A stretch of 64,000 nt of DNA, taken from positions 2,170,001-2,234,000 of the forward strand of contig NZ_JACHMJ010000001.1 of assembly GCF_014204935.1 (NCBI RefSeq). The letters run 5' to 3'. Numbering within the stretch: position 1 is the first letter of the stretch; each line of letters starts with the position of its first letter. Positions 499 to 17,872 of this stretch are shown piece by piece. A program made the position numbers and the translations under genes. Source of the stretch: Conyzicola lurida. GTDB taxonomy: Bacteria; Actinomycetota; Actinomycetes; Actinomycetales; Microbacteriaceae. A model generated the notes under the pieces. It was not told where the DNA came from. It saw only the letters and a list, made by a program, of their open reading frames with translations, and searched no databases.

Positions 499-587
499 GG
501 TGCTGTCCTCCAAGAGAGTGATGGTGCTTCGGGTGCAAAGGCTGCGGTGGGATGCCGCGGCTCGACGTCACATCGCCGGCCGGAGCA

Positions 588-640
588 ACTTGGATCCAAT
601 GTAGACCAATACGCATCCAATTATGTTTCCGTTGGATTAC
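588..640. promoter_or_regulatory. Operator cluster upstream of the binding-protein gene
   Basis: The stretch holds a 10-bp palindrome TTGGATCCAA (590-599), then ATCCAA (615-620) and TTGGAT (632-637) in inverted orientation 11 bases apart. The same words recur upstream of other units of this island, so I read them as binding sites of the local GntR regulator; that link is inferred. Confidence 0.6.
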
Positions 641-2022
641 AAGTGACGGGGAATCCCCACTGACCCCTCTGCCACCCAGACGGCGCGGCCTCCCACCTCG
701 GTGCGCAGCACGCGCGCGGCGGCGAATTCGGACGCGGAACAGAGAAGCGGGTCGACGTCGATCAGCACCCAGTCGGCGAGGAAGCCCGCGCGCAGCATTC
801 CGCGGCGGTCGTCCGCGAACGAGGCATGCGCCGCTCCCCGCGTGTAGGCGGCGACGGCCTCGGGCACGGTGATTCCCTCGTCGGGGCCGACCGGTTCGTC
901 GAGCCCGCGCATCCGCCGGTCGACCGCGACGGGCACGACCTGCCGCGGGTCGAACGGGAAGTACGGGGCGTCGGACCCCATCGCCACCACGGCTCCCGCG
1001 TCGAGCCAGGCGCGCATCGGGTTGACGGACTGTACCCGGTCGCCGAGACGTTTCGCCAGCCCCGCCGCGTTGTTCCAGGCGATGGACGGCTGCAGGGAGG
1101 CCACGACGCCGAGGCGGGCCGCACGCTCCATGCTGGCGACGCTCGGTTCGAGGTAGGCGTGGATGAGCTGGCAGCGCAACGGCCCGAGCGAGTCGGGAGC
1201 GCCGGCCGCCTCGAGACCGTCGAGCACCTGCTCGACCGCCCGGCTGCCGACCGCGTGCACGCCGAGGCCCCAGCCGCGTGAGATGCAGGCGGCGGCGAGT
1301 CGTGCGAACTCGTCGGCGGAGAGGCGCTGGACACCGTGGTCGTCGCCCGACCACGGGCGTTCGAGCAACGCCTGCCCTTTCATCCCCTCGCCGTCGTAGT
1401 AGATCTTGACCGGGCCCAGCCGCAAGACGTCGTCGCCGGCTCCGGTCGCACCCTCGATGCCGTCGAGCACGGCCACGGCGGCGTCGATGTCGGGCACGAG
1501 TGCCGAACCGAGCTGGGGCCAGGGCATCGCGACGACGCGCAGGGTGAGCTCGCCGCGTCGGTGTGCCTCGCGGTAGCCCGCGAGTTCGTCGACCGAGACG
1601 GCGGGGTCGACGACGCCGGTGAAGCCCATGGCGTGCAGCAGCGGCTGCACGACGCGCAGCGCGGCGAGACGGTCCTCGATGCGGGGAGGCTCGTCGCCGA
1701 GCCAGTCGGGAGCGTCGGGGTCGGCGTCGCCGTCGGCGAGCATCACGGCCGAGAACTCGGCGACGCCGGCGCCCGCGGGCAGCAACTGCAGCGCTTTGAG
1801 CCCGGCGCGCTGCGCGTGCGAGTGTGCGTCGATGAAGCCGGGCAGGATGACGCCGTCGAAGTGCTCCTCGACCGTGTCGAGGAGCGCCGCCGCCCGCACC
1901 TCGTCGAGGGCACCGATCGCGGCGATGCGGCCGCCGACGACGAGCATCGCCTCGGCCTCGGGCGCGTGGTCGTCCATCGTGCGGATCGAACCGACGACGA
2001 GCCGCGCTCCCCTGTCAGACAC
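637..2022 (-). CDS. Amidohydrolase family protein (YtcJ-like, amidohydrolase 3)
   Basis: A 461-residue metal-dependent hydrolase of the amidohydrolase-3 (YtcJ-like) type. The composite domain opens with GSIRTMDD and LVVGGRIAAIGALDEV, then FIDAHSHAQRAGLKA gives the first HxH metal pair. A YYDGEGMKGQALLERP segment carries the region of the bridging ligand, HAVGSRAVEQVL and QLIHAYLEP supply later His residues, and MGSDAPYFPFDPR holds the catalytic Asp. Such enzymes hydrolyse amide-like or cyclic C-N bonds. The GTG start at 2022 overlaps the cysteine hydrolase stop by 8 bases, giving translational coupling; a longer upstream reading would run inside that gene and is not used. Confidence 0.87.
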   Translation of the reverse strand: MSDRGARLVVGSIRTMDDHAPEAEAMLVVGGRIAAIGALDEVRAAALLDTVEEHFDGVILPGFIDAHSHAQRAGLKALQLLPAGAGVAEFSAVMLADGDADPDAPDWLGDEPPRIEDRLAALRVVQPLLHAMGFTGVVDPAVSVDELAGYREAHRRGELTLRVVAMPWPQLGSALVPDIDAAVAVLDGIEGATGAGDDVLRLGPVKIYYDGEGMKGQALLERPWSGDDHGVQRLSADEFARLAAACISRGWGLGVHAVGSRAVEQVLDGLEAAGAPDSLGPLRCQLIHAYLEPSVASMERAARLGVVASLQPSIAWNNAAGLAKRLGDRVQSVNPMRAWLDAGAVVAMGSDAPYFPFDPRQVVPVAVDRRMRGLDEPVGPDEGITVPEAVAAYTRGAAHASFADDRRGMLRAGFLADWVLIDVDPLLCSASEFAAARVLRTEVGGRAVWVAEGSVGIPRHL

Positions 2023-2620
2023 CGGCGGCCTCGCGCTCGTCGAGCCACTCGTGCACGTCGCCCGCGGTGACGAGGGCATCGCGCTGCAGGTAGCCGATCG
2101 CCTCGAGGGCCGCGTCGTGCGCCCGCTCGCTGGATCCGGCGACGCAGTCGGTGAGCACCCGCACCGTGTAGTCGTGCTGGTGCGCATCGGCTGCCGTGTA
2201 GTGGATGCAGATGTCGGTGAGCCCGCCGACGAGCATGACGGTCTCCGCCTTGTACGCCTTGAGCACGATCTCGAGCTCGGTACCGAAGAAGGCCGAGTAG
2301 CGGCGCTTGCGGATGACGAACTCCTCGGGGCGCGGCTCGAGCCACGACGCGAGCTCGGTGCTCTCGTCGCCCTCGAGGCAGTGCGACCCCTCCGCCCCGT
2401 CGAGCTCGCGGCCGATGTCGACGAGGTCGCGCTTATGCACCTCCTGGATGAAGACCACCGGGATGTCGGCCTCGCGGCAGTGCGCGATCAGGTCGCGCAC
2501 GCGTGGTGCGCGCTCCGCCCGCCCGCTCATGACCGGGATTCCCGGTGTGGGGAGGGCCGACGTGCTGCCGCCCTGGATGTCGACGACGATGAGGACGGGA
2601 TTACCCGTGACGGTCAGCAT
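2015..2620 (-). CDS. Isochorismatase-family cysteine hydrolase
   Basis: A 201-residue isochorismatase-like hydrolase. LIVVDIQGG near residue 13 gives the catalytic Asp, EGSHCLEGDESTEL and VIRKRRYSAFFGTELE give the middle catalytic Lys region, and LVGGLTDICIHYTAADA places the nucleophilic Cys in the family's xDxCxxxTA context. Members act as amidases (nicotinamidase, ureidoacrylate or carbamoylsarcosine hydrolase types) on small amides. The ATG at 2620 follows a good GGAAGGA ribosome site; longer readings have none. It is coupled to the amidohydrolase behind it, so the two probably act in sequence on one compound. The substrate is not predictable. Confidence 0.88.
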   Translation of the reverse strand: MLTVTGNPVLIVVDIQGGSTSALPTPGIPVMSGRAERAPRVRDLIAHCREADIPVVFIQEVHKRDLVDIGRELDGAEGSHCLEGDESTELASWLEPRPEEFVIRKRRYSAFFGTELEIVLKAYKAETVMLVGGLTDICIHYTAADAHQHDYTVRVLTDCVAGSSERAHDAALEAIGYLQRDALVTAGDVHEWLDEREAAGV

Positions 2621-2720
2621 GGTGGTTCCTTCCGCGGATGGGACAGATCGATGGTGCTGGTCGCTCTGCACCCGCCCCGCAAGTGTCGGCGGCCCGGCGA
2701 CCGGGGGTGGGTCGCCGGTG

Positions 2721-3185
2721 TTACGGCGACGTAAACTCTGCGGCTCCGGGCTCCCGGCCCGTGCGGCGCCGCCGGAACGGCAGCAGCTCGGAGACGCCGA
2801 CGGCACCGAATGCGTCGCCGACGGCGACCCAGACGCGGGCGTCGGGCGCGTGGTCGCCGAGCAGCTCGGCACACACCCCGCACGGCTCGATGAGGTGGGT
2901 GCTGCCGCCCGGGCGCCGCAGCACGCCGACCACCGCGACGACCGGCGAACCGGCGATCACGGCGGCGCTCAGCGCGGCCGATTCGGCGCAGACCGACGCG
3001 CGGCCCGCCGACGCTTCGACGTGGAGTCCGGTGACGACCGTGCCGTCGGCCAGCCGCAGGGCGGCCGCGACCTCGTGCACGCCGACCAGGTACCGCGTGT
3101 CGAGCACGGCGAGGGCGGTGTCGAGCAGCTCGACGTCACCCTCGCTCATGCCCGCGGGCGGGCCGTCGAGCACAGGGCGGCTCAT
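2721..3185 (-). CDS. Cytidine-deaminase-like zinc hydrolase
   Basis: A 154-residue protein of the cytidine deaminase fold. The VEASAGRASVCAESAAL segment holds the zinc Cys and the proton-shuttle Glu of the CAE motif, and IEPCGVCAEL gives the two further zinc cysteines (PCxxC). Length fits the homotetrameric family. Its start overlaps the stop of the upstream amidohydrolase-like gene (ATGA), so the two are co-translated. In this setting it may deaminate a heterocyclic or modified base rather than serve pyrimidine salvage; that is an inference from context. An internal ATG 12 codons later is also possible. Confidence 0.8.
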   Translation of the reverse strand: MSRPVLDGPPAGMSEGDVELLDTALAVLDTRYLVGVHEVAAALRLADGTVVTGLHVEASAGRASVCAESAALSAAVIAGSPVVAVVGVLRRPGGSTHLIEPCGVCAELLGDHAPDARVWVAVGDAFGAVGVSELLPFRRRRTGREPGAAEFTSP

Positions 3186-3943
3186 GTCCAGCCGAGGATC
3201 CGGGCCATGTTGCCGCCCTCGACGAGTGCGCGGTCGGCCTCGTCGGGGATCGCCTTCGCGATCTTCATGCGCTCGAGGTCGAAGTCGCTGCCGGGCCACT
3301 CGGACCCGAGGAGGATCTTCTCGGCGCCCAGTCGCGCGTAGGCGCGCTTGACGTCGGACATCAGCGTGGCCGAGGTCTCGAGGTAGATGTGCGGGTTGCG
3401 CTCGGCGACGATGATCGCCTCGGGCACGTTCCACACGGCGCCCATGTGGGCGATGATCGTCGGCACGCCCGGGAAGCCCTTGGCGATCTCCTCGATCGAG
3501 AAAGGCGCGCAGAACGCGTCGTCGAGGGCATTGATCAGCACGGGCAGGCCGAGCTCGTCGCAGACCTCGAACAGCGGGTCGAGCAGGCCGTGGTCGGCCA
3601 CGTGGTAGCCGTGCATGCTCGGGTGGAGCTTGAGCCCGACGAGGCCGCCGTCGGCGAAACGCCGGATCTCGTCGACCGCGTGGTCCCACTGCGGCATTAC
3701 TTGGCCGAAGCCGAACAGGCGGTCGGGGTGCTTCTTGACGAGGTCCATCAGGAAGTCGTTCTCGATGCCCTGGGCGAGCGAGCAGACCATCGCGCGGTCC
3801 ACACCGGCGGCGTCCATCCGGTCGAGGATGCGCTTGGCGTCGAACGGCACGTAGGCCGGCGGCTTCTCCCCCGGCTTCACTCCGCTGAGGTAGTCACTGC
3901 GTCCGCGGCGGTCCTGCGTGGTGTTGTATGCGTCGATGATCAT
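3182..3943 (-). CDS. Amidohydrolase-2 family TIM-barrel protein with altered metal site
   Basis: A 253-residue protein of the amidohydrolase-2 (PF04909) type: MIIDAYNTT, GLKLHPSMHGYH (near 103-114), LPVLINAL, TIIAHMGAVWNVPEA (near 162-176), LETSATL and LLGSEWPGSD (near 211-220). The scaffold is clear, but the usual N-terminal HxH is replaced by Y-N-T (residues 6-8), and the usual His of LPVLIH is Asn. It may therefore bind one metal, bind none, or use a non-hydrolytic decarboxylase-like mechanism. It is the first gene of a unit with the deaminase-like gene, and a copy of the island operator lies 58 bases upstream. Confidence 0.85.
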   Translation of the reverse strand: MIIDAYNTTQDRRGRSDYLSGVKPGEKPPAYVPFDAKRILDRMDAAGVDRAMVCSLAQGIENDFLMDLVKKHPDRLFGFGQVMPQWDHAVDEIRRFADGGLVGLKLHPSMHGYHVADHGLLDPLFEVCDELGLPVLINALDDAFCAPFSIEEIAKGFPGVPTIIAHMGAVWNVPEAIIVAERNPHIYLETSATLMSDVKRAYARLGAEKILLGSEWPGSDFDLERMKIAKAIPDEADRALVEGGNMARILGWT

Positions 3944-4000
3944 GCCTGTGCACTCCCTCTCGCGGCGTCGGAAATCCGCAATTATTTATCCCATTCAAGC

Positions 4001-4018
4001 ATGATTGGATCCAATCGC
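4001..4018. promoter_or_regulatory. Palindromic operator upstream of the amidohydrolase-2 gene
   Basis: The palindrome GATTGGATCCAATC occupies 4003-4016, flanked by AT/GCAT that partly extend the symmetry. It matches the site at 4621-4634 base for base and lies in the 84-bp gap before the gene starting at 3943. I take it as a GntR operator. Confidence 0.65.
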
Positions 4019-4027
4019 ATAGCGCGC

Positions 4028-4567
4028 TCAGGCGATTACGGGTCCGGCGGTCATTCCGGCCATGGCGATGAGCGCCGCGAGCGACGCGAACCGGCGCACC
4101 GTCTCGACGCGGTTCGGTCGACGGCGCACGACGAGCGCGACGACGGCAGCCCCGTGCGCGGCCACCACGATTGCGGTGATGAGGATGACGGATGCCGACG
4201 TCGCCGCCCCGTGCGCGTGCGCCACGGAGCCCAGGGCCTGCGCCCGGCCGGGTCCCGCCCCGAGGAACATCACGAGTACGGCGGCGAGCAGCATACTCGC
4301 GGCGTGCAGGTCGTCCCCCGGCGACTGGGTGCCGCGCCTGCGGCGCACGCGGTCGGCGAAGGCGACTCCGATCGCACAACCCATGAGCAGCAGGGACCAG
4401 ACGGGCGCGGGCAGCATTCCGAGCGGCGGGAGATGCAGGTCGAGCATCGCCGCGAGCATCACGAGCTCGGCCACGGGCACGGCCCGACCGCCCGAGTGCC
4501 GCCGGGAGACCGCCAGCGCGAGGGAGACGGCGCCGCAGAACAGGGCGACGACGGTGAGCGCCGTCAT
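4028..4567 (-). CDS. Small polytopic membrane protein of unknown function
   Basis: A 179-residue protein with about five predicted membrane segments (TVVALFCGAVSLALAV, VAELVMLAAML, PVWSLLLMGCAIGVAF, ASMLLAAVLVMFLGA, ASVILITAIVVAAHGAAVVALVV). A His-containing segment (DLHLPPLGMLP) and a loop with HAHGAA recall DUF5134-type proteins, but this assignment is weak. The ATG at 4567 is chosen because the region above it is the operator-bearing promoter. A length near 180 and the island operator at 4619-4636 tie it to the regulon; a part in transport or metal handling is possible but unproven. Confidence 0.65.
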   Translation of the reverse strand: MTALTVVALFCGAVSLALAVSRRHSGGRAVPVAELVMLAAMLDLHLPPLGMLPAPVWSLLLMGCAIGVAFADRVRRRRGTQSPGDDLHAASMLLAAVLVMFLGAGPGRAQALGSVAHAHGAATSASVILITAIVVAAHGAAVVALVVRRRPNRVETVRRFASLAALIAMAGMTAGPVIA

Positions 4568-4616
4568 GACCGGATTTCCGCGCGGGGACGCCGTGTCGCC
4601 GCCATCCCGGAATTTC

Positions 4617-4654
4617 GCATGATTGGATCCAATCATACGCAGGACGTATCCAAC
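4617..4654. promoter_or_regulatory. 18-bp perfect operator palindrome plus a half site
   Basis: ATGATTGGATCCAATCAT (4619-4636) is a perfect 18-bp palindrome and the best copy of the island operator. A half site GTATCCAAC follows at 4646-4654. They lie between the divergent membrane-protein gene and the GntR gene, where one repressor could control both. Confidence 0.7.
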
Positions 4655-4698
4655 AAGCACCGGAACGACAGAATCCCCAGTTGCCCCTCGCGGGGAAA

Positions 4699-4726
4699 GG
4701 ATCCAATCTGTGCCAACATTGGATAC
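4699..4726. promoter_or_regulatory. Inverted operator half sites upstream of the GntR gene
   Basis: GGATCCAAT (4699-4707) and ATTGGATAC (4718-4726) face each other about 41 bases before the regulator's start, placing them where autoregulation would act. Confidence 0.6.
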
Positions 4727-4767
4727 CGGCCGATCACACGGCCCCATCCGATCAAAGGGGTTCCGAC

Positions 4768-5460
4768 ATGACCATCACCGATGGCAATGCCCTCGTCGAC
4801 GATCTCGCCGCCCGCATCCGGGCCAAGATCATGTCCGGCGAGATCCCGATCGGCGCCCCGCTGCGCCAGGCCGACCTCGCCGCGCAGTTCGGCATCAGCC
4901 GCACCCCCGTGCGCGAGGCGCTGCGCCAGCTTCAGACCGGAGGCCTCATCGAGGTCGTGCCGAACCGCGGCGCCGTCGTCCGCGTGCCTGTGCCGTGGGA
5001 GGTGCGCGAGGCCTACGAGGTGCGCGCCGAACTCGAGTCGCTCGCCGCCCGCCGCGCGGTCGACCGCCTCGACGACGCGACGATCGTGGAACTCCGGACC
5101 ATCAACACCGCGATGTACGAGCGGTCGCTGGCGATCGCCGCCGGCACCGTCCCCGAACACGACGGAACAGACAACGACCACTTCCACGGCCTGATCTACC
5201 GCGTGTCGGGTAACACGCGCCTGACCCGCATGCTCGGCGAGATCAATGACGCGTTCCCGCGCAACGTCTCCGCGCTCGTGCTCCGCGACAAGCCGCGTCA
5301 CCGCGAGGAGAACTTCCGCGAGCACGAGGCACTGCTGGAGGCCTTCGCGGCGGGCGACCACGAGCGAGCCGCCCAGCTGATGCGCGAGCACGTCCTCAGT
5401 GCCGGCGAGCACCTCGCCCAGTGGTACGAGCGCCGCTCGTCGACGGTGTTCACGGGCTGA
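4768..5460 (+). CDS. GntR-family (FadR/FCD subfamily) transcriptional regulator
   Basis: A 230-residue regulator. Residues about 8-75 form the winged helix (IRAKIMSGEIPIGAPLRQ, then ISRTPVREALRQLQ as recognition helix, then GLIEVVPNRGAVV). The rest is the helical FCD effector domain with candidate metal ligands in TDNDHFHGLIY, KPRHREENFREHEALL and the closing HVLSAGEHL. The ATG at 4768 has AAAGGGG seven bases upstream. FCD members are usually repressors of catabolic operons released by an organic acid or pathway intermediate. Its own promoter and the neighbouring units carry the TTGGATaC operator, so this is the likely island regulator. Confidence 0.92.
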   Translation: MTITDGNALVDDLAARIRAKIMSGEIPIGAPLRQADLAAQFGISRTPVREALRQLQTGGLIEVVPNRGAVVRVPVPWEVREAYEVRAELESLAARRAVDRLDDATIVELRTINTAMYERSLAIAAGTVPEHDGTDNDHFHGLIYRVSGNTRLTRMLGEINDAFPRNVSALVLRDKPRHREENFREHEALLEAFAAGDHERAAQLMREHVLSAGEHLAQWYERRSSTVFTG

Positions 5461-5469
5461 CGTTCTCGC

Positions 5470-5514
5470 GGGTTGAACCTGCCGAAACCCGGGGTGGGGT
5501 TTCGACAGACTCAA
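5470..5514. repeat. Palindromic GAGCCTGTCGAA-type repeat / terminator between convergent genes
   Basis: Imperfect arms (GGGTTGAACCTGCCGAAACC against GGGGTTTCGACAGACTCAA) form a hairpin around GGGGT between gntR and the amidase, which end towards each other. It is a diverged member of the dispersed palindrome seen at 33042, 47924 and 48496, and could terminate both transcripts. Confidence 0.7.
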
Positions 5515-5521
5515 TTCGCTT

Positions 5522-6937
5522 CTACCCGAACGACGGCGCCTTCGCGATCCAGCCCGTGGCCTCCTCGATCGCGCGTGTGACCGCGAGCAGCTGCGTCTCG
5601 CGGCCGTGCCGCCCGACCATCTGGACGCCGACCGGCAGCCCGCCGGCCGTGAAACCGGCCGCGGTGACCACCACGGGATGCGCGGTCAGCGTGAGCCGGT
5701 TCGCAAGCATCTGCCAGGTGAAGTACCGGTCGAATCTCGTGCCGTCGACGGTGTCGACCCACTCCAGCGACGCGTCCGGAGCCGCGACGGGGGTCGCGGG
5801 CAGCACCAGCACGTCGTACCGCTCGAGCAGTGCTTCGGTGTCGCGGAACGCGCGCGTGCGGCGCTCGTAGGCGTCGGCGAGCTGGGTGGCGGTCATCGCG
5901 CGACCCTGCTCGACGTTGCGGACGTAGTCCGGCCGGAAACCCGTGACTCCCACGTCGACCGCGTGACGTCCGCCGAGGAAGAACTCGAACGTCTCGATCG
6001 TCTCCCAGGCTTCGTCGGCTCCGGCGAAGTCGGGCTCGGCGTTCTCGACGACCGCTCCGAGGCCCGCGAGCTGCTGCGCGAACGCAGCGTGCACCGCGGC
6101 GACGTCGCGGTCGATGGGGAGTCCCCCGGCGTCCACGCTCCACGCGACTCGGAGTCCCGCCACCTCGACGGGCCGCGCCGGATGAGTGGGCAGCGACGAC
6201 AGCGGCCAGACGCTCTTCTCGACCGCGAGCCCCTCGAGGAACAGCGCGGCGTCGGCCGAGTCGCGGGCCATCGGACCGGTGACCCCGTGCGGGGTCCAGG
6301 CGTTGCCCGTGCGGCCGCTGGCCACGCGGCCGGGGCTCGGGCGCACGCCGACGACGTTGCAGAACGCCGCGGGGTAGCGCAGGCTGCCCCCGCTGTCCGA
6401 GCCGTCGGCGATCGGGAGCATGCGGGCGGCCAGGGCGGCGGCCGCGCCGCCGCTCGATCCGCCGGCGTGCTTCGTCGTGTCCCACGGGTTGACCGTGGTG
6501 CCGAAGACGGGGTTGAACGACAGTACGCCCTGCCCCATCTCGGGCGTGTTCGTCTTGCCGATGATCAGCGCCCCGGCCTCGCGCAGCAGGGTGGCGAGCA
6601 CACTGTCGTAGCGGGCGGGCGGAGCGTCCGCGAAGGCTGCCGACCCGTTCGTGGTGGGGAAGCCCGCGACATCCATCAGGTCTTTGACCGCCGTCGGCAG
6701 GCCGTGCAGCGGCGGCAGGGTCTCCCCCGCGGCCAGAGCCTCGGCGGTGCGCCGGTCGGCCGCCTCGGCCGCGGCGAGCGAGACCGAGTCCGGCTGCTGC
6801 GAGACGACGGCACGGAAGGCGGGATTACGCTCTTCGATGCGCTCGAGGTGGGCGCGCATCACCTCGACGGCGGACACCTCCCGCGCGGCGACCGCGCCGG
6901 CCAGTCGGACGGCGCTCCAGTCGGCGAGGTGCTCCAT
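5522..6937 (-). CDS. Amidase (amidase-signature family)
   Basis: A 471-residue amidase-signature enzyme with the Ser-cisSer-Lys triad visible: VKDLMD (Lys85), AGGSSGGAAAAL (Ser161/162) and GSDSGGSLRYPA (nucleophile Ser185). The C-terminal part (PVGVQMVGRHGRETQLLAV) is typical of stand-alone amidases rather than GatA, whose gene lies elsewhere in the window. It would hydrolyse a carboxamide to acid plus ammonia or amine. The gene is the last of a five-gene leftward operon; its ATG shares one base with the stop of the copper amine oxidase. Confidence 0.92.
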   Translation of the reverse strand: MEHLADWSAVRLAGAVAAREVSAVEVMRAHLERIEERNPAFRAVVSQQPDSVSLAAAEAADRRTAEALAAGETLPPLHGLPTAVKDLMDVAGFPTTNGSAAFADAPPARYDSVLATLLREAGALIIGKTNTPEMGQGVLSFNPVFGTTVNPWDTTKHAGGSSGGAAAALAARMLPIADGSDSGGSLRYPAAFCNVVGVRPSPGRVASGRTGNAWTPHGVTGPMARDSADAALFLEGLAVEKSVWPLSSLPTHPARPVEVAGLRVAWSVDAGGLPIDRDVAAVHAAFAQQLAGLGAVVENAEPDFAGADEAWETIETFEFFLGGRHAVDVGVTGFRPDYVRNVEQGRAMTATQLADAYERRTRAFRDTEALLERYDVLVLPATPVAAPDASLEWVDTVDGTRFDRYFTWQMLANRLTLTAHPVVVTAAGFTAGGLPVGVQMVGRHGRETQLLAVTRAIEEATGWIAKAPSFG

Positions 6938-8961
6938 CAGCGGCCGCCCTCGTGGCCGTGCTGCTGCTCGGCGTGCCCGTGACCCGCGTGGGCGTCGTGG
7001 GCGTCATGGGCAGAGTGCGCGCTGTGGTCGTGCGCCGAGTGGTCGTGTCCGGCGTCGGCGGGCATGGCGCAGTGGTCGGAGGTCGCCGACGGCGGAACGT
7101 CGAGCGAGGGATTGCGGTCGAAGAACCCGTCGGGCTCGAGGCGCAGGCGGATGCGGTCGACGGGCATGATCGGCCACTGCTCGGGGCGCGGGAAGTGGTG
7201 CACACCGAGCACGGGCCAGAGCACGAGGCGTTCGTTCTCGAGCGAACGGTTCTCGCGCTGCCACACGTGCACGCCGTCGTCTCCGAGCTCGCCCTGGTTC
7301 GGGTACTCGCCCGCGATGAAGCGCTGCTCGGGGTCGAACGCGCTGGCCCACAGGTGCTGCGCGACGAACGGGGCCTTGCGCTCCACGACGCTGCCCGGGC
7401 GGGCGAAGAGTCCGGCCGTGTTGTCGATCGCGAGGCGGTACGCCGTGCTGTCGCCGTAGCGGTTGACCGCGGACTCGCTCTCGACGCGCCAGTGCTTCGC
7501 GGTTGACGGGTCGGCCTTGCGGGCGCCGAGCGACTCCGTCGAGATCGGGGTCTCGACGGCGATGCAGGCGTTGCCCCACGGGTTCAGAGCCTCGTCGGGC
7601 TCGGGCTCGGCGTGCACCTCGACGAGGCGGTTGAGCGGTCCGTCGATGGCGGTGTCGAGGCGCACCGCGAAGTAGTGCTGGTGGGTCGGGGCCTGCACGT
7701 TCGGCGCGACGAGGCGTCCGTAACGGGGCTTCTCGCCGTCGGCGATGCCCGAGACCGACATCAGTCCGGTGAGCTTGACCTCGAGTTCGATCGAGCCGTC
7801 CTGCGACAGGGTCCAGTAGAAGCCGTAGTCGTAGTTCGCGACGGTGGCGAAGCTGGAGATGACCAGCTTGCGGCTGCGGCGCACCTCGGCGCTGCCCGTG
7901 CGGGTGTTGACGTGCTTCCAGAGGATCGAGTCGTCTTCCTCGTGGATGCAGATGCCGTTCGCGATCGTCTGCGGTTCGCCGTGGCCGTCGAGGTACTCCA
8001 CGTCGAAGTAGCGGATCTCGCCGAGGCAGTCGCAGCCGAGCTCGAGGCTCGCGGTGAGGGGGCCCGCTCCGTACTCGCCCCAGTCGAAGAAGTTCTTGCG
8101 GTAGGCCGTCGGGTCGCTGTCGAGGTACGGAACGTACATCTCGTTGACGGCGGCGCGCTGCAGGATCGGGCGCACGGTGTCGCCGTCCTTGTAGGTGAGC
8201 TCGTGGAGCACGAGTCCCTCGCGGTGGCTGAAGCCGACGACGAACGACCAGTTCTGCCAGGTGATGCGGCGGCCCTCGATGACGAAACCGGGGCCGTCGG
8301 GCTGCACGACGTCGAGCGCGGAGACCTCACGGTCGGGTCCCCAGGTGCCCGAGGTGTAGGTGCCGGTCTCGGTGGCCATCGGGATGACGCCGTGGTCTTC
8401 GATCCGGATCACCTCGAGGGTGTCGAGGTCGAGGATCGGCACGAGTCCCGCGACGGGGCGGGCGTAGCCGTTGTCCTCGGGGAATTCGCGGTACCAGACC
8501 GTGCCCCAGCTCAGGCGGCGGTCGGCGAGGTCGTCGGGCACGAATCCGGTGATCGACTCCGGGTCGACCCAGACCAGCGACGTGTCGGTGATGCCGCGCT
8601 TGGCGAGCGCCTCGACGAGCAGCGGCGATTCGCGCGCCGCCCGGGCGATCAGGCGTGCCTCGTCGCTGGAGACGCCGGGACGCCGGTGGTCGACGTCGGA
8701 CCAGACCTCGACGATGGCGTCGCTCTCGGGGCCGGCCGTCCAGCCCCGCACCTCCCAGGCCGCGTGGGCGTCGGGGTCCATCACGACGAGGCGCACGGGG
8801 CGCGCACCGCCGGGTACCAGACTCCGGGCCTTCTCCTCGTCGAGGGAGATGCCCCAGAAGCGCGGGCGGGCGCCGATGCGCTCGCTGGCCCGCACGGCGG
8901 CGACGAAGGAGGCGATCTCGGCGGAGGTGAGCGGGTCGAGGACGTGGGCGGTGGTGCTCAT
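6937..8961 (-). CDS. Copper-containing primary amine oxidase with a His-rich C-terminal tail
   Basis: A 674-residue copper/topaquinone amine oxidase: RCH2NH2 + O2 + H2O gives aldehyde, NH3 and H2O2. The topaquinone precursor is Tyr377 in TVANYDYGF, the base is Asp293 in FFDWGEYGAG, and copper ligands are His427 and His429 (THQHYF) plus one His of GVHHFPRPEQWP near 588-589. No signal peptide is seen. After the usual family end near residue 620, a tail carries 13 histidines between residues 630 and 670 (for example AHDHSAHSAHDAHDAHAGHG), perhaps for copper loading. The start overlaps the transferase-like gene by ATGA. The aldehyde product could feed the dehydrogenase at 14761. Confidence 0.95.
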   Translation of the reverse strand: MSTTAHVLDPLTSAEIASFVAAVRASERIGARPRFWGISLDEEKARSLVPGGARPVRLVVMDPDAHAAWEVRGWTAGPESDAIVEVWSDVDHRRPGVSSDEARLIARAARESPLLVEALAKRGITDTSLVWVDPESITGFVPDDLADRRLSWGTVWYREFPEDNGYARPVAGLVPILDLDTLEVIRIEDHGVIPMATETGTYTSGTWGPDREVSALDVVQPDGPGFVIEGRRITWQNWSFVVGFSHREGLVLHELTYKDGDTVRPILQRAAVNEMYVPYLDSDPTAYRKNFFDWGEYGAGPLTASLELGCDCLGEIRYFDVEYLDGHGEPQTIANGICIHEEDDSILWKHVNTRTGSAEVRRSRKLVISSFATVANYDYGFYWTLSQDGSIELEVKLTGLMSVSGIADGEKPRYGRLVAPNVQAPTHQHYFAVRLDTAIDGPLNRLVEVHAEPEPDEALNPWGNACIAVETPISTESLGARKADPSTAKHWRVESESAVNRYGDSTAYRLAIDNTAGLFARPGSVVERKAPFVAQHLWASAFDPEQRFIAGEYPNQGELGDDGVHVWQRENRSLENERLVLWPVLGVHHFPRPEQWPIMPVDRIRLRLEPDGFFDRNPSLDVPPSATSDHCAMPADAGHDHSAHDHSAHSAHDAHDAHAGHGHAEQQHGHEGGR

Positions 8962-10526: not shown

Positions 10527-11614
10527 ACGAGGGTCTCCATCCGGGAGGGGGTGAGGAAGTCGAGGTCGGGGCGGGCGACGCCGGCGACCAGGTCGGCGAC
10601 GGCCTCGCCGATAGCGGGGCCGAACTTGAAGCCGTGTCCCGAGCAGGCCGCGGCGACCAGCACCTCGGGGGTGCCGGGCAGGGCGCCGACGACGAAGCGC
10701 TTGTCGGGCGTCATCGTGTACAGGCAGGCCACGGCGTCGCCGCCCGCGGTCTCGATGCCGGGCACAAAACGCTGCAGCAGCCCGGCCAGGTGGGAGATCT
10801 CGGCCCCGGTCGGTGCCGCGACCGGCACTTCCGGGTCCCACACCTCCCCGGCGTCGATACCGATCTTGGCACCGGATCCGCCGGCCTCCGGGAGTCCGAA
10901 GACGAGGCCCTCGGGCAGGTCGACCGAGAAGCAGCCGAGAACGGGTGGTCGGGCGACGGCCTGACCGGTGGGCACGGTGAGGGTGACGATGCGCCACACC
11001 TCGAAGAAGCCCGCGGCCTGGGGCACGAGCTGCGACGCCCACGCTCCCCCGGCCAGCACGAGCCGTCTCGTTCGGACGGAACCCGCCGACGTGCGCACGG
11101 TGACGATGCCGTCGTCGACGGTCCAGTCGAGCACGGTCTCGCCGAAGCGCAGCTCGGCACCCGCGGCGGCGGCCGCCGACTGGGCGTAGGCGAGGGCACC
11201 GGCCGCGTCGACGACTCCGGCTTCGGGGTCGTAGACGGCGCCGAAGTCGGCGGGCGGGCGCACGGACGGCACGAGGGCCGCCCACTCGTCGGAACCGGCC
11301 GGGCGGCTCTGGCCGCCCTGCAGCGCCGGTGCACCGTCGTGAGCGTAGAGCCCGCCGGTGGTTTCGACGAAGGGTTGACCCGCCGCGCGCGCCCAGCGGT
11401 CCCAGCCGAGGTAGGCGCGGTCGACGAGGTCGTTCCAGACGGGGCTGGGGTAGGCGCGCCGGATCATCCGCGTCGCGCCGTGGGACGAGCCGCGGGTGTG
11501 CCCGGGCTCGAAGCGTTCGATGCCGACGACGTCGAGACCGCGCAGGGCGAGCTCGTACACCGCGGCCGAGCCGTGGATTCCGAGGCCGAGCACCACGGCG
11601 TCGCGCACGGTCAT
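10523..11614 (-). CDS. FAD-dependent amine oxidase, monomeric sarcosine oxidase/N-methyltryptophan oxidase type
   Basis: A 363-residue DAO-family flavoenzyme. The N-terminal dinucleotide fold is VVLGLGIHGSAAVYELALRG with the acidic strand end GIERFE. GSSHGATRMIRRAY is typical of the monomeric sarcosine oxidase group, ACLYTMTPDKRFVV contains Cys297 in the place of the covalent-FAD cysteine, Lys250 (GAKIGID) matches the oxygen-activating Lys, and CSGHGFKFGPAIGE closes the flavin site. It would oxidise a secondary amine or N-methyl amino acid to an imine with H2O2 release. ATGA overlaps at both ends place it second in the operon. Confidence 0.9.
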   Translation of the reverse strand: MTVRDAVVLGLGIHGSAAVYELALRGLDVVGIERFEPGHTRGSSHGATRMIRRAYPSPVWNDLVDRAYLGWDRWARAAGQPFVETTGGLYAHDGAPALQGGQSRPAGSDEWAALVPSVRPPADFGAVYDPEAGVVDAAGALAYAQSAAAAAGAELRFGETVLDWTVDDGIVTVRTSAGSVRTRRLVLAGGAWASQLVPQAAGFFEVWRIVTLTVPTGQAVARPPVLGCFSVDLPEGLVFGLPEAGGSGAKIGIDAGEVWDPEVPVAAPTGAEISHLAGLLQRFVPGIETAGGDAVACLYTMTPDKRFVVGALPGTPEVLVAAACSGHGFKFGPAIGEAVADLVAGVARPDLDFLTPSRMETLV

Positions 11615-12855
11615 CGCGCGGTCACCTCCGCCGCGATCTCCGAGACCCGACCGAGCAGGGCATCGCGGTCCTCGTCGTCGTTGTAGACGTGGGGCGAGAC
11701 CCGCACGACACTGGCGAGTCCGCGGGCGCCGAGGTCCCACTGCGCGTGGCCGGCGGGAACGCTGATCGAGTCGACACGCGCGAGGCGCAGCGCCGCGCTG
11801 ACCTGCTTGCTCACCAGACCGTCGATCGTGAAGGTGACGATGGCCGAGGGCGACGCGACGGGGTCGGCGACAACGACGCCGTCGATGGCCGCGAGATCAT
11901 CGCGAAGACCGGCGGCGTAGCCCACGAGATGGGACTCCGTCGCTGCCATCCCCCGCTCGGCCGCCTCACGCAGGGCGACACCGAGGCCGAGGCGGGCGGC
12001 GACAGACGCCTCCCAGGTCTCGAGCTGACGAGCCGAGCCGTCCATGGTCCACTCCTCCGCGCCGGTCCACACCGAGCCTCGCACGTCGGGTGCCCAGCCG
12101 CCTAAACCGTCGAGCACACCGTTGCGCAGGTAGGCGAAACCGGTGCCGCGCGGTCCCCGCAGGAACTTGCGGCCCGTGGTCACGAGCGCGTCGCAGCCGA
12201 GGGCGAGCACGTCGATGTCGAGCTGGCCGACGGACTGCGTCGCGTCGACGACGGTGATCGCGCCGTGCTTTCGGCCGAGGGCGCAGATCGCAGCGACCGG
12301 CTCGACGAGGCCCGACGAGGTGGGGATGTGAACCGCGCTGATGACGACACGGCCGGATGCCGCGGCGAGAGCGCTCTCGAGGGCGTCGAGGTCCATCGCG
12401 CCGGTCGCGCCGTTCGGCACGACGACCAGGTCGACCCCGTCGTACCGCTTCATCGCGAGCATCCGCAGGGCCTGGCTGATGTAGCTGGACCGCGGCGCGA
12501 TGACGGTGTCGCCCGCGCCGAGGCGCAGGGAGTCGAAGACCGCGCGCAGACCGGAGGTCGCGCTGTCGAAGAAGGCGAATTCGCCGGGTGTGCCGCCGAG
12601 AAGGGCGGCGGCCGCCGTGTAGACGCCGGCGACCTCGTCGACCATGAGGTTCGCGGCCTCGTACCCGCCGCTGCGCTGTTCCAGCCGCAGGTGGCCGATC
12701 ATCGCGTCGAGCACCGCGTCGCTCATCAGGCTCGCCCCGGCGGCGTTGAAGTAGTGGCGGCCGGAGGCTCCCACGGTACGGGCGCGCTCGGCTGCGACGT
12801 CGATCGCAGCCACCGTCGGCGTGACCAGGGCATCGCCCTCGAGACCGATCGTCAT
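11611..12855 (-). CDS. PLP-dependent aminotransferase class V-fold protein
   Basis: A 414-residue fold-type I PLP enzyme of the class V (cysteine desulfurase/selenocysteine lyase-like) group. YFNAAGASLMSD forms the N-terminal signature, the cofactor is stacked by the 98-100 SAT region, VVDATQSVGQLD gives Asp204 and Gln207, and TTGRKFLRGPRGTGF gives the Schiff-base Lys230. No conserved desulfurase Cys loop is visible near the C-terminus, so a beta-lyase, epimerase-like or transaminase role is more likely than sulfur transfer. The ATG at 12855 follows GGAAGGA. It heads the five-gene leftward operon, and operator half sites lie in its promoter. Confidence 0.88.
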   Translation of the reverse strand: MTIGLEGDALVTPTVAAIDVAAERARTVGASGRHYFNAAGASLMSDAVLDAMIGHLRLEQRSGGYEAANLMVDEVAGVYTAAAALLGGTPGEFAFFDSATSGLRAVFDSLRLGAGDTVIAPRSSYISQALRMLAMKRYDGVDLVVVPNGATGAMDLDALESALAAASGRVVISAVHIPTSSGLVEPVAAICALGRKHGAITVVDATQSVGQLDIDVLALGCDALVTTGRKFLRGPRGTGFAYLRNGVLDGLGGWAPDVRGSVWTGAEEWTMDGSARQLETWEASVAARLGLGVALREAAERGMAATESHLVGYAAGLRDDLAAIDGVVVADPVASPSAIVTFTIDGLVSKQVSAALRLARVDSISVPAGHAQWDLGARGLASVVRVSPHVYNDDEDRDALLGRVSEIAAEVTAR

Positions 12856-12889
12856 GATGCGGGTCCTTCCTCGTGAGCACCCAACCCGG

Positions 12890-12936
12890 TGCATAATGGA
12901 TCCCATAGTAATCAGGTTGTATCCATTTATGCCAGC
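12890..12936. promoter_or_regulatory. Operator half sites between the amine operon and the ridA-like gene
   Basis: GCATAATGGATCCCAT (12891-12906) and GTATCCATTTATGCC (12919-12933) are inverted relatives of each other and of the island operator. They lie in the 116-bp gap between divergent starts at 12855 and 12972, so one protein could control both directions. Confidence 0.6.
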
Positions 12937-12971
12937 GCGAGATACTCTGGAGTCCTAGTACAGGGAGAAAC

Positions 12972-13475
12972 ATGGTCCACTCAGCCGAAGCCCGCGCGAT
13001 CGAACTCGGGCTGGTCATCCCCGACTACGCCAATCCCCCGTACGGCGGCCGGTACGGCAGCTCGCTCCGCGCCTTCCACCGCACGGGCGACCTGCTCGAG
13101 CTGAGCGGCATCACCCCCGAGTCCCGGGACGGCGTGATGGTGCACCCCGGCTCCGTCGGTGTCGACATCACGCTCGACCAGGCGCAAGAAGCGGCGCGGT
13201 ACACGGCGGTGAACGCCCTCGGCCTGATCCGCTACGCCCTCGGCAGCCTCGACGAGGTCGTCGCCCTCTCGCGCGGGCTCTGCTTCGTGCTCTGCCCGCC
13301 CGGATTCGAGCGGCTCAACGAGGTGTCCAACGCCGCGAGCGACCTGCTCTTCGACGTGTTCGGGCCGGATGTCGGACGGATGGGCCGCGCGTCCATCGGT
13401 GCGACCGCGCTCTCGCGCAGCGCGTGCTTCGAACTCTGGCTCAGCCTGGAGTGCCGCCCGCGCAGCGCCGCGTGA
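12972..13475 (+). CDS. RidA/YjgF-family protein (YjgF endoribonuclease-like subgroup)
   Basis: A 167-residue RidA-superfamily protein matching the longer PF14588 subgroup: AIELGLVIPDYANPPYGG, RTGDLLELSGITP, HPGSVGVDITLDQAQEAAR, ALGLIRYALGSLDEV, PGFERLNEVSNAASDLL and GRASIGATALSRSACFEL. RidA proteins of the founding group hydrolyse reactive enamine/imine intermediates made by PLP and flavin amine enzymes, which fits a neighbour of a flavin amine oxidase and a PLP enzyme. GGGAGA precedes the ATG. Its stop overlaps the MFS start (GTGA), so the two are co-translated. Confidence 0.9.
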   Translation: MVHSAEARAIELGLVIPDYANPPYGGRYGSSLRAFHRTGDLLELSGITPESRDGVMVHPGSVGVDITLDQAQEAARYTAVNALGLIRYALGSLDEVVALSRGLCFVLCPPGFERLNEVSNAASDLLFDVFGPDVGRMGRASIGATALSRSACFELWLSLECRPRSAA

Positions 13476-14698: not shown

Positions 14699-14720
14699 AC
14701 GGCGGCACGATCGCGTACCA

Positions 14721-14753
14721 GAGCGCCGAGAGTTCTCAGAGAGCCCGGCGCTC
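14721..14753. terminator. Bidirectional hairpin between convergent MFS and aldehyde dehydrogenase genes
   Basis: Perfect 8-bp arms GAGCGCCG (14721-14728) and CGGCGCTC (14746-14753) enclose a 17-base loop that can form a small inner stem. It sits in the 62-bp gap between two gene ends and has no clear U tract. Confidence 0.55.
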
Positions 14754-14760
14754 AGCGAGC

Positions 14761-16215
14761 TCAGAGCGCGATGACCACGCTCTTCATCTCGGTGTAGGAG
14801 CGCAGCGCTTCTTCGCCGAGGTCGCGGCCGAGCCCCGACTCGCCCACGCCGCCGAAGGACAGCGCGGGGTCGAATACGTTGTAGGTGTTCACCCAGACGG
14901 TTCCGGCGCGCAGGCGCTGGCCCATGCGGTGGGCCCGCGCGAGGTCGTTGGTCCAGACGCCGGCCGCGAGGCCGTAGCTCTGGTCGTTGGCGATGGCCAC
15001 CGCGTCGTCCTCGTCGTCGAACGGGATGATGCCGACGACCGGTCCGAAGATCTCCTCGCGGGCGATGGTCATCTCGTTCGTGACCCCGCTGAACAGCGTC
15101 GGCTCGACGTAGTAGCCGGCGCGGTCGGGCACGTTTCCGCCGACGACGACGGTCGCGCCCTCGGCCTGGCCCGTGGCGATGTAGCCGAGCACCTGCTGTC
15201 GCTGTTCCTCGGAGACGAGCGGACCGACCGTGACCCCGCCGGCGAGGCCGTCGCCGAGCGAGACCCGGCGTACGGCCGCGGCGAGGCGCTCGGTGGTCTC
15301 GGCGAGGATCGAGCGCTGCACGAGCAGGCGGCTGCCGGCGGTGCACATCTGGCCGGAGTGGCCGAAGGAGGCGCGCATCGCCGTGAGCACGGCGGCGTCG
15401 AGGTCGGCATCCTCGAAGATGATGTTCGCGCTCTTGCCGCCGAGCTCGAGGGTGAGGCGCTTGAAGTCGCCCGCCGCGGCGGTCATGACCTTGCGCCCGA
15501 TCTCGGTGCTGCCGGTGAACGAGATCTTGTCGACGCCGCGGTGGGCCGTCAGCGCGGCACCGACGCGGCCGTCGCCGGTGAGGACCTGCACGACGCCGGC
15601 GGGAACACCGGCCTCCTCGCAGATCGCGGCGAGACGCAGCATCGTGATGGGGGTCTGCTCGGCGGGCTTGACGATGACGGTGCAGCCCGCGGCCAGCGCG
15701 GGGGCGAGCTTGAAGCTCGCGGTCATGATCGGGAAGTTCCACGGCAGGATCAGCGCCGCGACGCCGACCGGCTCGGGCGTCGTGTAGACGTGGTGCTGGC
15801 CGCCGTCGATAGGCACGACCGTGCCGGTGAGGCGCGAGGGCGCTCCCGCGTAGTAGCGGAAGACCCGGGCGGCCGTCGCCGTGTCGGCGCGCGAGCGCTC
15901 GATCGGCTTGCCGTTGTCGCGGGTCTCGAGCACGGCCAGCTCTTCGAGGCGCTCCTCGATGAGGTCGGCGACCTTTCCGAGGATGCGGCTGCGGTCGTGC
16001 GGGCTCATGCCGCTCCACCGGCGGTCCTCGTGGGCGCGGCGCGCGGTGGCGACCGCTTCCTCGACGTGCGCCTCGTCGGCCTGGGGAACGCGGGTCAGCA
16101 GCTCCTCGGTGGCCGGGTCGATGATGTCGATCAGTTCCGCGCCCTCCGGGGTGATCCAGACGCCGTCGACGAGGTAGGGCTCGATCGGTGCGAGCGGGGC
16201 GAGTTGGTCTCTCAT
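14761..16215 (-). CDS. NAD(P)-dependent aldehyde dehydrogenase
   Basis: A 484-residue aldehyde dehydrogenase. LPWNFPIMTASFKLAPALA marks the cofactor domain, FTGSTEIGRKV the nucleotide loop, LELGGKSANIIFEDA the general-base Glu257, and GQMCTAGSRLLVQ the nucleophile Cys291. EEIFGPVVGIIPFDDE and SYGLAAGVWTNDL follow in the usual order. It would oxidise an aldehyde to the acid, and fits as the step after the amine oxidases. GGAGG lies four to five bases before the ATG. It is the second gene of a pair with the phosphotriesterase-family gene, 36 bases apart. Confidence 0.93.
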   Translation of the reverse strand: MRDQLAPLAPIEPYLVDGVWITPEGAELIDIIDPATEELLTRVPQADEAHVEEAVATARRAHEDRRWSGMSPHDRSRILGKVADLIEERLEELAVLETRDNGKPIERSRADTATAARVFRYYAGAPSRLTGTVVPIDGGQHHVYTTPEPVGVAALILPWNFPIMTASFKLAPALAAGCTVIVKPAEQTPITMLRLAAICEEAGVPAGVVQVLTGDGRVGAALTAHRGVDKISFTGSTEIGRKVMTAAAGDFKRLTLELGGKSANIIFEDADLDAAVLTAMRASFGHSGQMCTAGSRLLVQRSILAETTERLAAAVRRVSLGDGLAGGVTVGPLVSEEQRQQVLGYIATGQAEGATVVVGGNVPDRAGYYVEPTLFSGVTNEMTIAREEIFGPVVGIIPFDDEDDAVAIANDQSYGLAAGVWTNDLARAHRMGQRLRAGTVWVNTYNVFDPALSFGGVGESGLGRDLGEEALRSYTEMKSVVIAL

Positions 16216-16251
16216 GGGATCCTCCGGGGTGGTGGGTAGAAGCAGTCTCGA

Positions 16252-17274
16252 TCAGGCGGGCAGGTCGAGAAGCCGGGCGGGCTCCCCGACGGTCATCCGG
16301 TCGAGCGTCTCGTCGGAGACGCCGAGCAAGCGCAGGCCGGGCACGACGCGCGCGCTCAGGTGGTCGAGGCCGTGGCCGCCGAACCGGCGGAGCTGGCCCT
16401 TCGTCCACGTGCTGTGGCCGAGGACCCAGCGGATGCCGGGATCGGTGTCGAGCAGCGCGAGCAGGGCGTCGACGCGCTGCGGGTCGCTCGCGTTGCGGAT
16501 GCGCCCGACGTGCGCGCCCTCGTTGCCGAAGCACATCTCGAGCACAGCGCCGGACTGGCCGAGGTCGCGCAGGTAGGGGAGGTCGAGGAACTCGTCGACC
16601 GTGGTGAACACGATCCTCGAGGGGTCGACGCCGAGCGCCACGAGGTGGTCGACGATCTCGAGGCCGTTGCGGGCGTCGGCGGCCAGACGCACGCTGATCG
16701 CGGATCCGGTGGACACCGCGGCGCGGCCGGCGGCGGTGAGGCTGATGCGTTCCTGCTCGCCGTCGGGAGTCGAGAAGGCGCCGGTGGTCCCCATCAGGCC
16801 GAGGATCCCGGCCCGGTAGTCGGTTCCCGGCACGGCCTCCGTGAGCGCGCGCTCGAACAGCGCGGTGCGGCCGTCGACGTCGAGCGCGAGGTACCACTCG
16901 GGCAGGAGGCGCGGCAGGTACGCGCCGTAGCCCGAGACGACGTGCAGCCCGCCGCGCAGCGCGAGCGCCGGCAGCCTCGGGTGGTCGGGGCCGAAGCCGA
17001 GCGAGCTGAGGTCGACGATGGCGCCGAGGCCCGAGCGGGCGCCGATCGCGACCTCGTCGCCGAGCAGGTCGAGGTCGTCGAGACGCAGGTTGTCGGCGAG
17101 GGCGAGCTGGCTCCAGCGCAGGGCCGCCGCGAGATCGGCGGTCACCCGCCGGCCGGGATCGAGGTTCTCGACGCCCGGGCGCTGCAGGGCGCTCGCATCG
17201 GTGAGGAGGTGCTCGTGCATGGAGACCGCGCCGAGATCAACGCCCTCGACGGGCCCGAAGACGGTCTGGATCAC
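16252..17274 (-). CDS. Phosphotriesterase-family (PHP/amidohydrolase superfamily) protein, atypical metal site
   Basis: A 340-residue protein related to phosphotriesterase-like lactonases. VFGPVEGVDLGAVSMHEHLL carries the HxH pair (His20, His22), and the barrel order then follows through GILGLMGTTGAF, ISVRLAADARNGLEIVDHL, IVFTTVDEFLDLPYL and VLGHSTWTKGQL. The carboxylated Lys and the later metal His/Asp positions are not evident at their usual places (SVRL where THT is usual, TTVDE where GHLD is usual). Activity is therefore uncertain. The GTG at 17274 follows GGGAGT, and operator half sites stand upstream, so it leads the unit with the aldehyde dehydrogenase. Confidence 0.75.
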   Translation of the reverse strand: MIQTVFGPVEGVDLGAVSMHEHLLTDASALQRPGVENLDPGRRVTADLAAALRWSQLALADNLRLDDLDLLGDEVAIGARSGLGAIVDLSSLGFGPDHPRLPALALRGGLHVVSGYGAYLPRLLPEWYLALDVDGRTALFERALTEAVPGTDYRAGILGLMGTTGAFSTPDGEQERISLTAAGRAAVSTGSAISVRLAADARNGLEIVDHLVALGVDPSRIVFTTVDEFLDLPYLRDLGQSGAVLEMCFGNEGAHVGRIRNASDPQRVDALLALLDTDPGIRWVLGHSTWTKGQLRRFGGHGLDHLSARVVPGLRLLGVSDETLDRMTVGEPARLLDLPA

Positions 17275-17311
17275 TGGACTCCCATTTCCCCCACGATCAC
17301 GCGCCGCAGAT

Positions 17312-17342
17312 CGTATCCAATCTACACGTTTATGTATCCTTT
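17312..17342. promoter_or_regulatory. Tandem operator half sites upstream of the phosphotriesterase-family gene
   Basis: CGTATCCAATC (17312-17322) and TATGTATCCTTTGG (17331-17344) are direct copies of the TTGGATaC word in the complementary sense, within the 85-bp gap before the GTG at 17274. Confidence 0.55.
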
Positions 17343-17359: not shown

Positions 17360-17872
17360 CTACCCAGCCAACGCGGAGCGCAGCACGGCGAGGTCGGCCG
17401 CGCTGTGCGCCACCAGCGTGACGGTCTCGATCGCGGCATCCCGGTTCTCGTCGGCCCACGCCCTGACGGTGTCGACTGCGACGACGGACGCCGCGGCGAG
17501 GGGATACCCGTAGACGCCGGTCGATATCGCGGGAAACGCGATCGAGCGGAATCCAGCCGCGAGATCGAGCGAGTTGCGGTAGCAGGCCGCGAGCAGCGCG
17601 GCCGCGCGTTCGGGATCGTGCGCGCTGTAGACCGGGCCCACGGTGTGCACGATCTTCGCCGCCGTGGCGATGCGGAACGCGTCGGTCATTTTCGCCTCGC
17701 CCGTCGAGGCGCCGCCCAGTGCGCGGCAGGCCTCGAGCAGTTCCGGGCCCGCGGCGCGGTGGATCGCGCCGTCCACTCCCCCGCCGCCGAGCAGGCTGGA
17801 ATTCGCCGCGTTCACGATGACGTCGCTCGGGAAGCGCGTGATGTCGGCTTGGACGGCGTCGATGGTGATCAT
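17360..17872 (-). CDS. Macro-domain protein (ADP-ribose-binding / O-acetyl-ADP-ribose deacetylase type)
   Basis: A 170-residue single macro domain. [48 protein letters not shown] and [13 protein letters not shown] are the loops that bind ADP-ribose. Members hydrolyse O-acetyl-ADP-ribose or reverse ADP-ribosylation. The gene ends just beyond the promoter of the island's last unit and may be independent of it. A Shine-Dalgarno site is not obvious before the ATG. Confidence 0.92.

Follow-up and report, generated by a model that had tools for sequence, protein, structure and literature searches.

Palindrome pairs at a 21-bp spacing mark an amine/amide catabolic gene cluster of Conyzicola lurida and are predicted operators of its GntR/FCD regulator

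The 64,000-nucleotide stretch of Conyzicola lurida (Microbacteriaceae) DNA analysed here (the window; bases 2170001-2234000 of the genome) begins within a cluster of catabolic genes, in which copies of a palindromic word precede the operons and in which gntR encodes a GntR-type regulator with an FCD domain. Alignment of the sites indicated that the repeated unit is double, with a strong palindrome, ATTGGATCCAAT, accompanied by a weaker copy, the two centres being exactly 21 bp apart in six of seven operators. One operator lies in sequence to the left of the window (L015) and six, O2 to O7, lie in the window. The regulator and the operators are as follows.

4768-5460, plus strand: GntR regulator with FCD domain, candidate operator binder (Pfam GntR 8.1e-19, FCD 3.7e-23; alignment of 10 orthologs)
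L015 10957/10978 (window -9043/-9022): operator left of the window, 21 bp, before the cyclase/amidase operon
589-642: operator O2, strong 589-600 with weaker 610-621 and 631-642 (21-bp steps; third copy 7/12), before the minus-strand operon of a binding protein and a Dpp-type ATP-binding cassette (ABC) transporter
3983-4015: operator O3, strong palindrome 4004-4015 with weak 3983-3994, 21 bp, before amidohydrolase-2
4622-4654: operator O4, strong 4622-4633 (core of an 18-bp perfect palindrome) with 4643-4654, 21 bp, between the DUF5134-like gene and gntR
4696-4729: operator O5, 4696-4707 with 4718-4729, the sole 22-bp pair, directly before gntR
12895-12927: operator O6, 12895-12906 with 12916-12927, 21 bp, mid-gap between the divergent pyridoxal phosphate (PLP) enzyme operon and ridA
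17310-17342: operator O7, 17310-17321 with 17331-17342, 21 bp, before the phosphotriesterase-like and aldehyde dehydrogenase genes

A first-pass annotation of the window had placed the word in the gaps before these units. Each of the coordinates that it gave holds the word or a close variant, with variants only (AATGGATCCCAT, GTTGTATCCATT) at 12890-12936, and the copy that it singled out as best, 4619-4636, does read as a perfect 18-bp palindrome, ATGATTGGATCCAATCAT. It had also noticed no copies outside the gaps. Within the window this was borne out for TTGGATNC, which has 11 strand matches at eight places, every one inside those gaps (shuffled sequences gave a mean of 2.2 and a maximum of 6), and ATTGGATCCAAT with up to two mismatches has six window matches (shuffles: mean 0.33, maximum 2); beyond the window, one more operator lies 9 kb to the left. 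The genome scan proposed as a check against random density, run on the 3.64-Mb single-contig genome, favours the claim for the exact and paired sites. Exact TTGGATCCAA occurs at three places, all within the cluster. One mismatch adds 11 places, for a total of 14 versus 12 for the reversed control pattern; one of the 11, TTGGATACAA at 2160958, lies outside the window, 9 kb to its left, and the remaining 10 score 9-10 of 12 with a best 21-bp partner of at most 5. Because the one-mismatch count resembles the control and the outside places lack a good partner, we conclude that what distinguishes this cluster is the exact and the paired form of the word, not the single one-mismatch form. No 12-mer with at least 10 matches was found in window positions 22001-64000 or in L016, 20 kb further upstream.

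The pair pattern behaved similarly. Its exact form gives four rows genome-wide, all in the cluster, and one mismatch adds 17 rows, of which four are in the cluster and the other 13 fall at 11 places outside it (reversed control, 2). These 11 places reach at most 16 of 24 on the pair rule, the threshold of which is 18 of 24, and 10 of them lie within open frames of at least 341 aa, so no distant operator was seen in this genome by the one-mismatch scan at that threshold. A partner scoring at least 8 at 21 bp was found in six of the seven operators, against a background of 42 such 12-mers in 61,989 (62 kb nearby, outside the cluster). Operator O6 is central in the 116-bp gap between two divergent operons, a position that would suit a single pair shared by the two. 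Some operators resemble triple arrays in 21-bp steps, namely the one at 589-642 and those of L135 and L136. The pair nearest gntR (4696-4729), at its 22-bp spacing, has a poor left half and is perhaps a weaker autoregulatory operator.

We then considered whether the spacing recurs in other bacteria. A scan for relatives of the GntR protein gave 68 loci, of which 25 were chosen by hand so that each genus, judged by record title, appears about once (Herbiconiux twice, as L043 and L078); L096, at 27% identity, was dropped from the counts on 67 loci. In the 25 loci, 34 pairs in which both 12-mers score at least 9 were found at spacing 21, compared to 0-3 at each other spacing from 13 to 70 and about 0.003 per spacing in shuffled sequence, and 32 of the 51 strong sites had a partner of at least 8 at exactly 21 bp. 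Across the 68 loci and our own, 68 of 232 strong-site flanks scored at least 8 at 21 bp, 12 did so at 16 bp and no more than 6 at any other spacing tested. A looser rule applied to the 67 loci returned 174 pairs at 21 bp in 65 loci, followed by 46 at 16, 21 at 42, 19 at 34 and 17 at 26. In our reading, the 42-bp peak stems from triple arrays that keep phase. A 5-bp shift of the palindrome gives a partial match to itself, and we therefore take the smaller peaks at 16 and 26 bp to be register echoes (21 -/+ 5). When sites were merged into 161 operator clusters, none fell inside a match to a cluster protein, and 112 stood within 350 bp before the start of a cluster-protein homolog, at a median of 64.5 bp. 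The logo of 115 nonredundant pairs has ATTGGATCCAAT as the strong site and about nTnGGATCCAnn as the weak site; this logo is biased by selection on the consensus, and the spacing counts favour no spacing.

The occurrence of the pair follows that of the regulator gene. An ortholog of gntR (at least 67% identity) is present in 10 of 299 genomes of the family, our own included, and the strict pair pattern in 13, comprising 9 of the 10 genomes with gntR (again with our own) versus 4 of the 289 without (p = 1.5e-13, with no correction for shared ancestry; G006 and G236, which have paralogs of 40% identity, count among the genomes without gntR). Neither gntR nor a pair is present in five same-genus genomes, of which two are <85% complete. 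A class-wide sample contained gntR in 4 of 394 genomes, our own among them, and a looser pattern detected pairs in the three new gntR genomes and in G195, which had failed the strict pattern, versus one of 15 genomes without gntR. Paired operators are held by 65 of the 67 orthologous loci.

Pairs also stand at genes remote from gntR. A strict pair lies just upstream of the cyclase gene in G045, about 36 kb from gntR, and in G171, on another contig than gntR, a separation that may partly reflect assembly breaks. In G143 a strict pair precedes a binding-protein gene about 900 kb from gntR, and this same pair lies behind, not before, the amidohydrolase-2 and deaminase genes. Among the 299 genomes, nine of the 10 with gntR have the PLP-enzyme gene, as does G240, at 40% identity and without gntR; a pair is upstream of the gene in seven of the eight gntR genomes besides our own, including G045, where the gene is 93 kb from gntR, and is absent upstream of the G240 homolog. 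In L057, L085 and L092, three loci where hardly any or none of the cluster enzymes were recognised beside gntR, a pair stands no more than 160 bp before gntR. The co-occurrence, the 65 loci with pairs and the pairs far from gntR all support the first-pass suggestion of the local GntR/FCD protein as the natural candidate to bind the word. The cluster itself has a patchy distribution (10 of the 299 genomes of the family and none of the five same-genus genomes have gntR), and the GntR protein is 83% identical in Promicromonospora and 62-65% identical in Microbacterium among the matches listed, a pattern that suggests horizontal transfer.

The regulator has an N-terminal GntR winged helix-turn-helix (HTH; PF00392, residues 11-71) and a C-terminal FCD domain (PF07729, residues 81-209), both above cut-off. 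H140, H186 and H208 are invariant and N136 nearly invariant among the 10 orthologs, and these residues, putative metal ligands, fit the Asp/Asn and His pattern of the FCD metal site. Since the domain keeps this usual pattern, the inducer is probably a carboxylate-type pathway metabolite. Of the named FCD regulators considered (PhnR, CsiR, NanR, GlcC and LldR), none matched above its NCBIfam cut-off, the best being phnR_burk with 104.9 bits versus a required 271.5. The operator sites are two-fold symmetric, as dimer binding in the FCD subfamily asks, and binding of the regulator to them is predicted.

Twenty-one base pairs are two turns of B-DNA, and two dimers at this spacing would therefore share one DNA face; a fixed spacing between one strong and one weak palindrome is also a usual sign of cooperative binding. 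The sites thus have the fixed spacing of whole helical turns expected of a tandem two-dimer operator, a match that concerns geometry alone. We consider it likely that they are tandem operators of the local GntR/FCD repressor, occupied by two dimers on one face of the DNA and governing an amine/amide catabolic regulon. In the mechanism that we propose, the strong site would anchor a first GntR dimer and the weak site would be filled with its help, so that two dimers lie side by side; the paired dimers would repress the promoters until a pathway metabolite, probably a carboxylate, releases them. Repression is suggested by the habit of the family and by a promoter-like match before the cyclase gene, where the -10 hexamer (TACAAT) is inside the strong site. 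The regulon would serve for the uptake and breakdown of a compound with amide or amine groups.

Several observations weigh against this interpretation. In the 25-locus set 19 of 51 strong sites have no partner of at least 8 at 21 bp, and in the 67 loci 49 of the 161 operator clusters precede no cluster-protein homolog and a pair stands within 350 bp before gntR in only 38, at the threshold used. The pair before our own gntR (4696/4718) is spaced by 22 bp. A sigma-70-like promoter overlapping the operator was found only before the cyclase, with none at 480-4800, and the -35 hexamer before the cyclase is not obviously kept in relatives. The regulator has no NanR-like N-terminal extension, as its HTH starts at residue 11. 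Four genomes without gntR each hold one strict pair, with no cluster gene within the 3-kb loci around it. The PLP-enzyme gene of G191 has no pair directly upstream; it is second in a row behind an aldehyde dehydrogenase gene, which does have an upstream pair (L042). Finally, looser forms of the patterns elsewhere in the C. lurida genome exceed their reversed controls (12 of 20 rows with a control of 3, and 13 of 21 rows with a control of 2 for the other pattern).

Some of these points would agree with real tandem operators to which dimers bind independently, the weak copy merely raising local occupancy without contact between dimers. Weak sites do vary strongly, and both the 19 strong sites without a good partner and the lack of an extension like that of NanR fit such an arrangement. 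Independent binding does not, however, need a spacing so sharply fixed at 21 bp, with almost nothing at 20 or 22, and the smaller 42-bp peak points to triple arrays in the same phase; we therefore regard independent binding as unlikely. Another regulator might instead bind the word, with gntR merely part of a co-inherited cluster. The PLP enzyme, found in 9 of 10 gntR genomes and one other of the 299, documents such co-inheritance, and co-occurrence alone cannot separate the gene from the cluster. Against a different binder stand the three loci that keep a pair near gntR with few or no recognised cluster enzymes and the G240 homolog that has neither gntR nor pair. The word also has the size and symmetry given for FadR-subfamily operators in PMC4494728, and we consider a different binder improbable.

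The word could also be a promoter element or a dispersed intergenic repeat rather than an operator, and it does overlap the promoter-like hexamer pair before the cyclase gene. Yet no promoter-like match was found in 480-4800, the site of four of the seven operators. In this genome the exact and paired forms occur only in the cluster, and 14 of 15 related genomes that have no gntR lack them, which leaves this explanation with very little probability. We thus prefer tandem operators of the GntR/FCD repressor. A bolder form of that interpretation would have an undescribed FCD regulator, without the extension of NanR, that binds only as two dimers stacked on one DNA face, at an obligatory 21-bp tandem of GGATCC-cored palindromes and commands a patchily inherited actinobacterial amide/amine pathway, with the operator travelling with genes that leave the cluster; we hold this tentatively, at slightly less than an even chance.

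The genes of the cluster within the window are listed below.

1-498, minus strand: ABC-type substrate-binding protein, 5' part; the rest of the gene and the permease/ATPase genes are left of the window (L015)
637-2022, minus strand: amidohydrolase family 3 (PF07969 1.1e-49)
2015-2620, minus strand: isochorismatase-family hydrolase, biuret amidohydrolase/RutB-like, below those cut-offs
2721-3185, minus strand: cytidine-deaminase-like protein
3182-3943, minus strand: amidohydrolase-2 (PF04909 1.7e-30)
4028-4567, minus strand: DUF5134-like membrane protein, below gathering score
5522-6937, minus strand: amidase (PF01425 7.8e-84)
6937-8961, minus strand: copper amine oxidase, closest solved relative phenylethylamine oxidase
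8958-10526, minus strand: gamma-glutamyltranspeptidase (GGT)-family N-terminal nucleophile (Ntn) hydrolase; start by reading, searches used 8958-10439 or less
10523-11614, minus strand: amine oxidase dependent on flavin adenine dinucleotide (FAD), N-methyltryptophan/sarcosine oxidase-like, just below that cut-off
11611-12855, minus strand: class-V PLP enzyme, EgtE/SufS-like, below those cut-offs
12972-13475, plus strand: RidA/YjgF-like protein, below gathering score
13424-14698, plus strand: major facilitator superfamily (MFS) transporter, start uncertain
14761-16215, minus strand: aldehyde dehydrogenase
16252-17274, minus strand: phosphotriesterase-like hydrolase, start by reading

The first-pass annotation had joined roughly 16 genes over 17 kb in one regulon. 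The gaps that it named all hold operators, but the extent has grown, since the operator 9 kb to the left enlarges the set to 22-23 genes over about 26 kb, part of it outside the window. This one block would comprise a transporter, hydrolases, amine oxidases, the PLP enzyme, an aldehyde dehydrogenase and gntR itself. With operon limits set by reading gaps and overlaps, the operator in L015 precedes a kynurenine-formamidase-like cyclase and an amidase; an alpha/beta hydrolase 0.4 kb beyond these may belong with them. The transporter unit (L015 and window 1-498) consists of the binding protein, Dpp-type permeases and ATPases, and an amidohydrolase; the amidohydrolase-2 unit, of that gene followed by the cytidine-deaminase-like, isochorismatase-like and amidohydrolase-3 genes; and the PLP operon, of the PLP enzyme, the FAD amine oxidase, the GGT-family hydrolase, the copper amine oxidase and the amidase. 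Operators further precede the DUF5134-like gene, gntR, ridA with the MFS transporter, and the phosphotriesterase-like enzyme with the aldehyde dehydrogenase.

The most common companions of gntR in the 67 loci are the aldehyde dehydrogenase (53), the copper amine oxidase (52), the FAD oxidase (52) and the PLP enzyme (50), counted as matches at 1e-8, among which paralogs may be included. Judged by these companions, amine oxidation looks like the core of the pathway. An NCBIfam scan of 20 proteins, which left out the L015 amidase, the L015 amidohydrolase and the binding protein, gave a single match above cut-off among the matches listed, to the broad primary-amine oxidase subfamily. The enzyme families had brought kynurenine, ergothioneine, pyrimidine and biuret pathways into consideration, but these were set aside, as none had a supporting NCBIfam match above cut-off among those listed. 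The GGT-family protein has no evident signal peptide at its start (by reading), with 2nlz/2i3o-type proteins as nearest relatives; it may thus act in the cytosol as an amidohydrolase and not be a true transpeptidase. In L015, 16121-17842 is one 573-aa frame in which a DppC/NikC-type ABC permease is fused to a DppD/NikD-type ATPase. At the right end, a macro-domain gene (17360-17872) and a SatD-like gene (17998-18636) adjoin the regulon without an operator of their own.

In dozens of Actinobacteria the operator would show which genes, even those remote from the cluster, serve a single catabolic pathway, and a simple scan for it could lead to that pathway and to the inducer. A tandem fixed at two turns, with a GG/CC core, would also offer a clean test of DNA recognition and cooperation by an FCD regulator without the extension of NanR. 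No description of this regulon was found in the literature searched, a search whose reach did not include many subscription papers and supplements.

Among solved structures the closest sequence is the "Probable transcriptional regulator" of PDB 7xp0/7xp1 (E = 2.2e-26), a distant likeness by sequence alone. The system resembles those of the FadR (FCD) subfamily, as portrayed in PMC4494728, in joining a GntR winged HTH to an FCD domain, in its palindromic operators, in constant-distance double sites centred in divergons and in weaker extra boxes beside the palindromes. Constant-spacing double sites near the middle of divergons were read there as co-operative (Suvorova et al. 2015; PMC4494728), and O6 fits that reading. 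The same study gives TKGT/ACMA as the common consensus of the subfamily, although NanR and BioR also deviate from it. In the present sites G takes the fourth position (TTGG/CCAA; among 115 nonredundant strong sites, G in 88% and T in 10%), and the half-sites thus do not carry the GT/AC pairs of that consensus, which are not required of every member. At most promoters here the addition is a second whole palindrome 21 bp away, whereas the extra boxes of the FadR subfamily are half-sites 7-12 nt from the centre, and neither "21 bp" nor "tandem" occurs in the main text of PMC4494728.

Escherichia coli NanR, as presented in passages of PMC8012715, is likewise a GntR-type repressor and places several dimers cooperatively on one operator, (GGTATA)3, which for the present regulator is only proposed. 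NanR uses direct repeats and a 32-residue N-terminal extension (PMC8012715), whereas here the units are palindromic and placed in 21-bp steps and the HTH begins at residue 11; the operator is accordingly not of the NanR type, with its direct GGTATA repeats and long extension. HypR of Streptomyces coelicolor (PMC6608401) is also a FadR-subfamily repressor of an actinobacterial catabolic regulon, and its footprint covers a -10 region. Its motif, CTNTGC(A/C)ATGTCAC, differs from the word described here, and the passages on HypR in PMC6608401 do not describe tandem palindromes.

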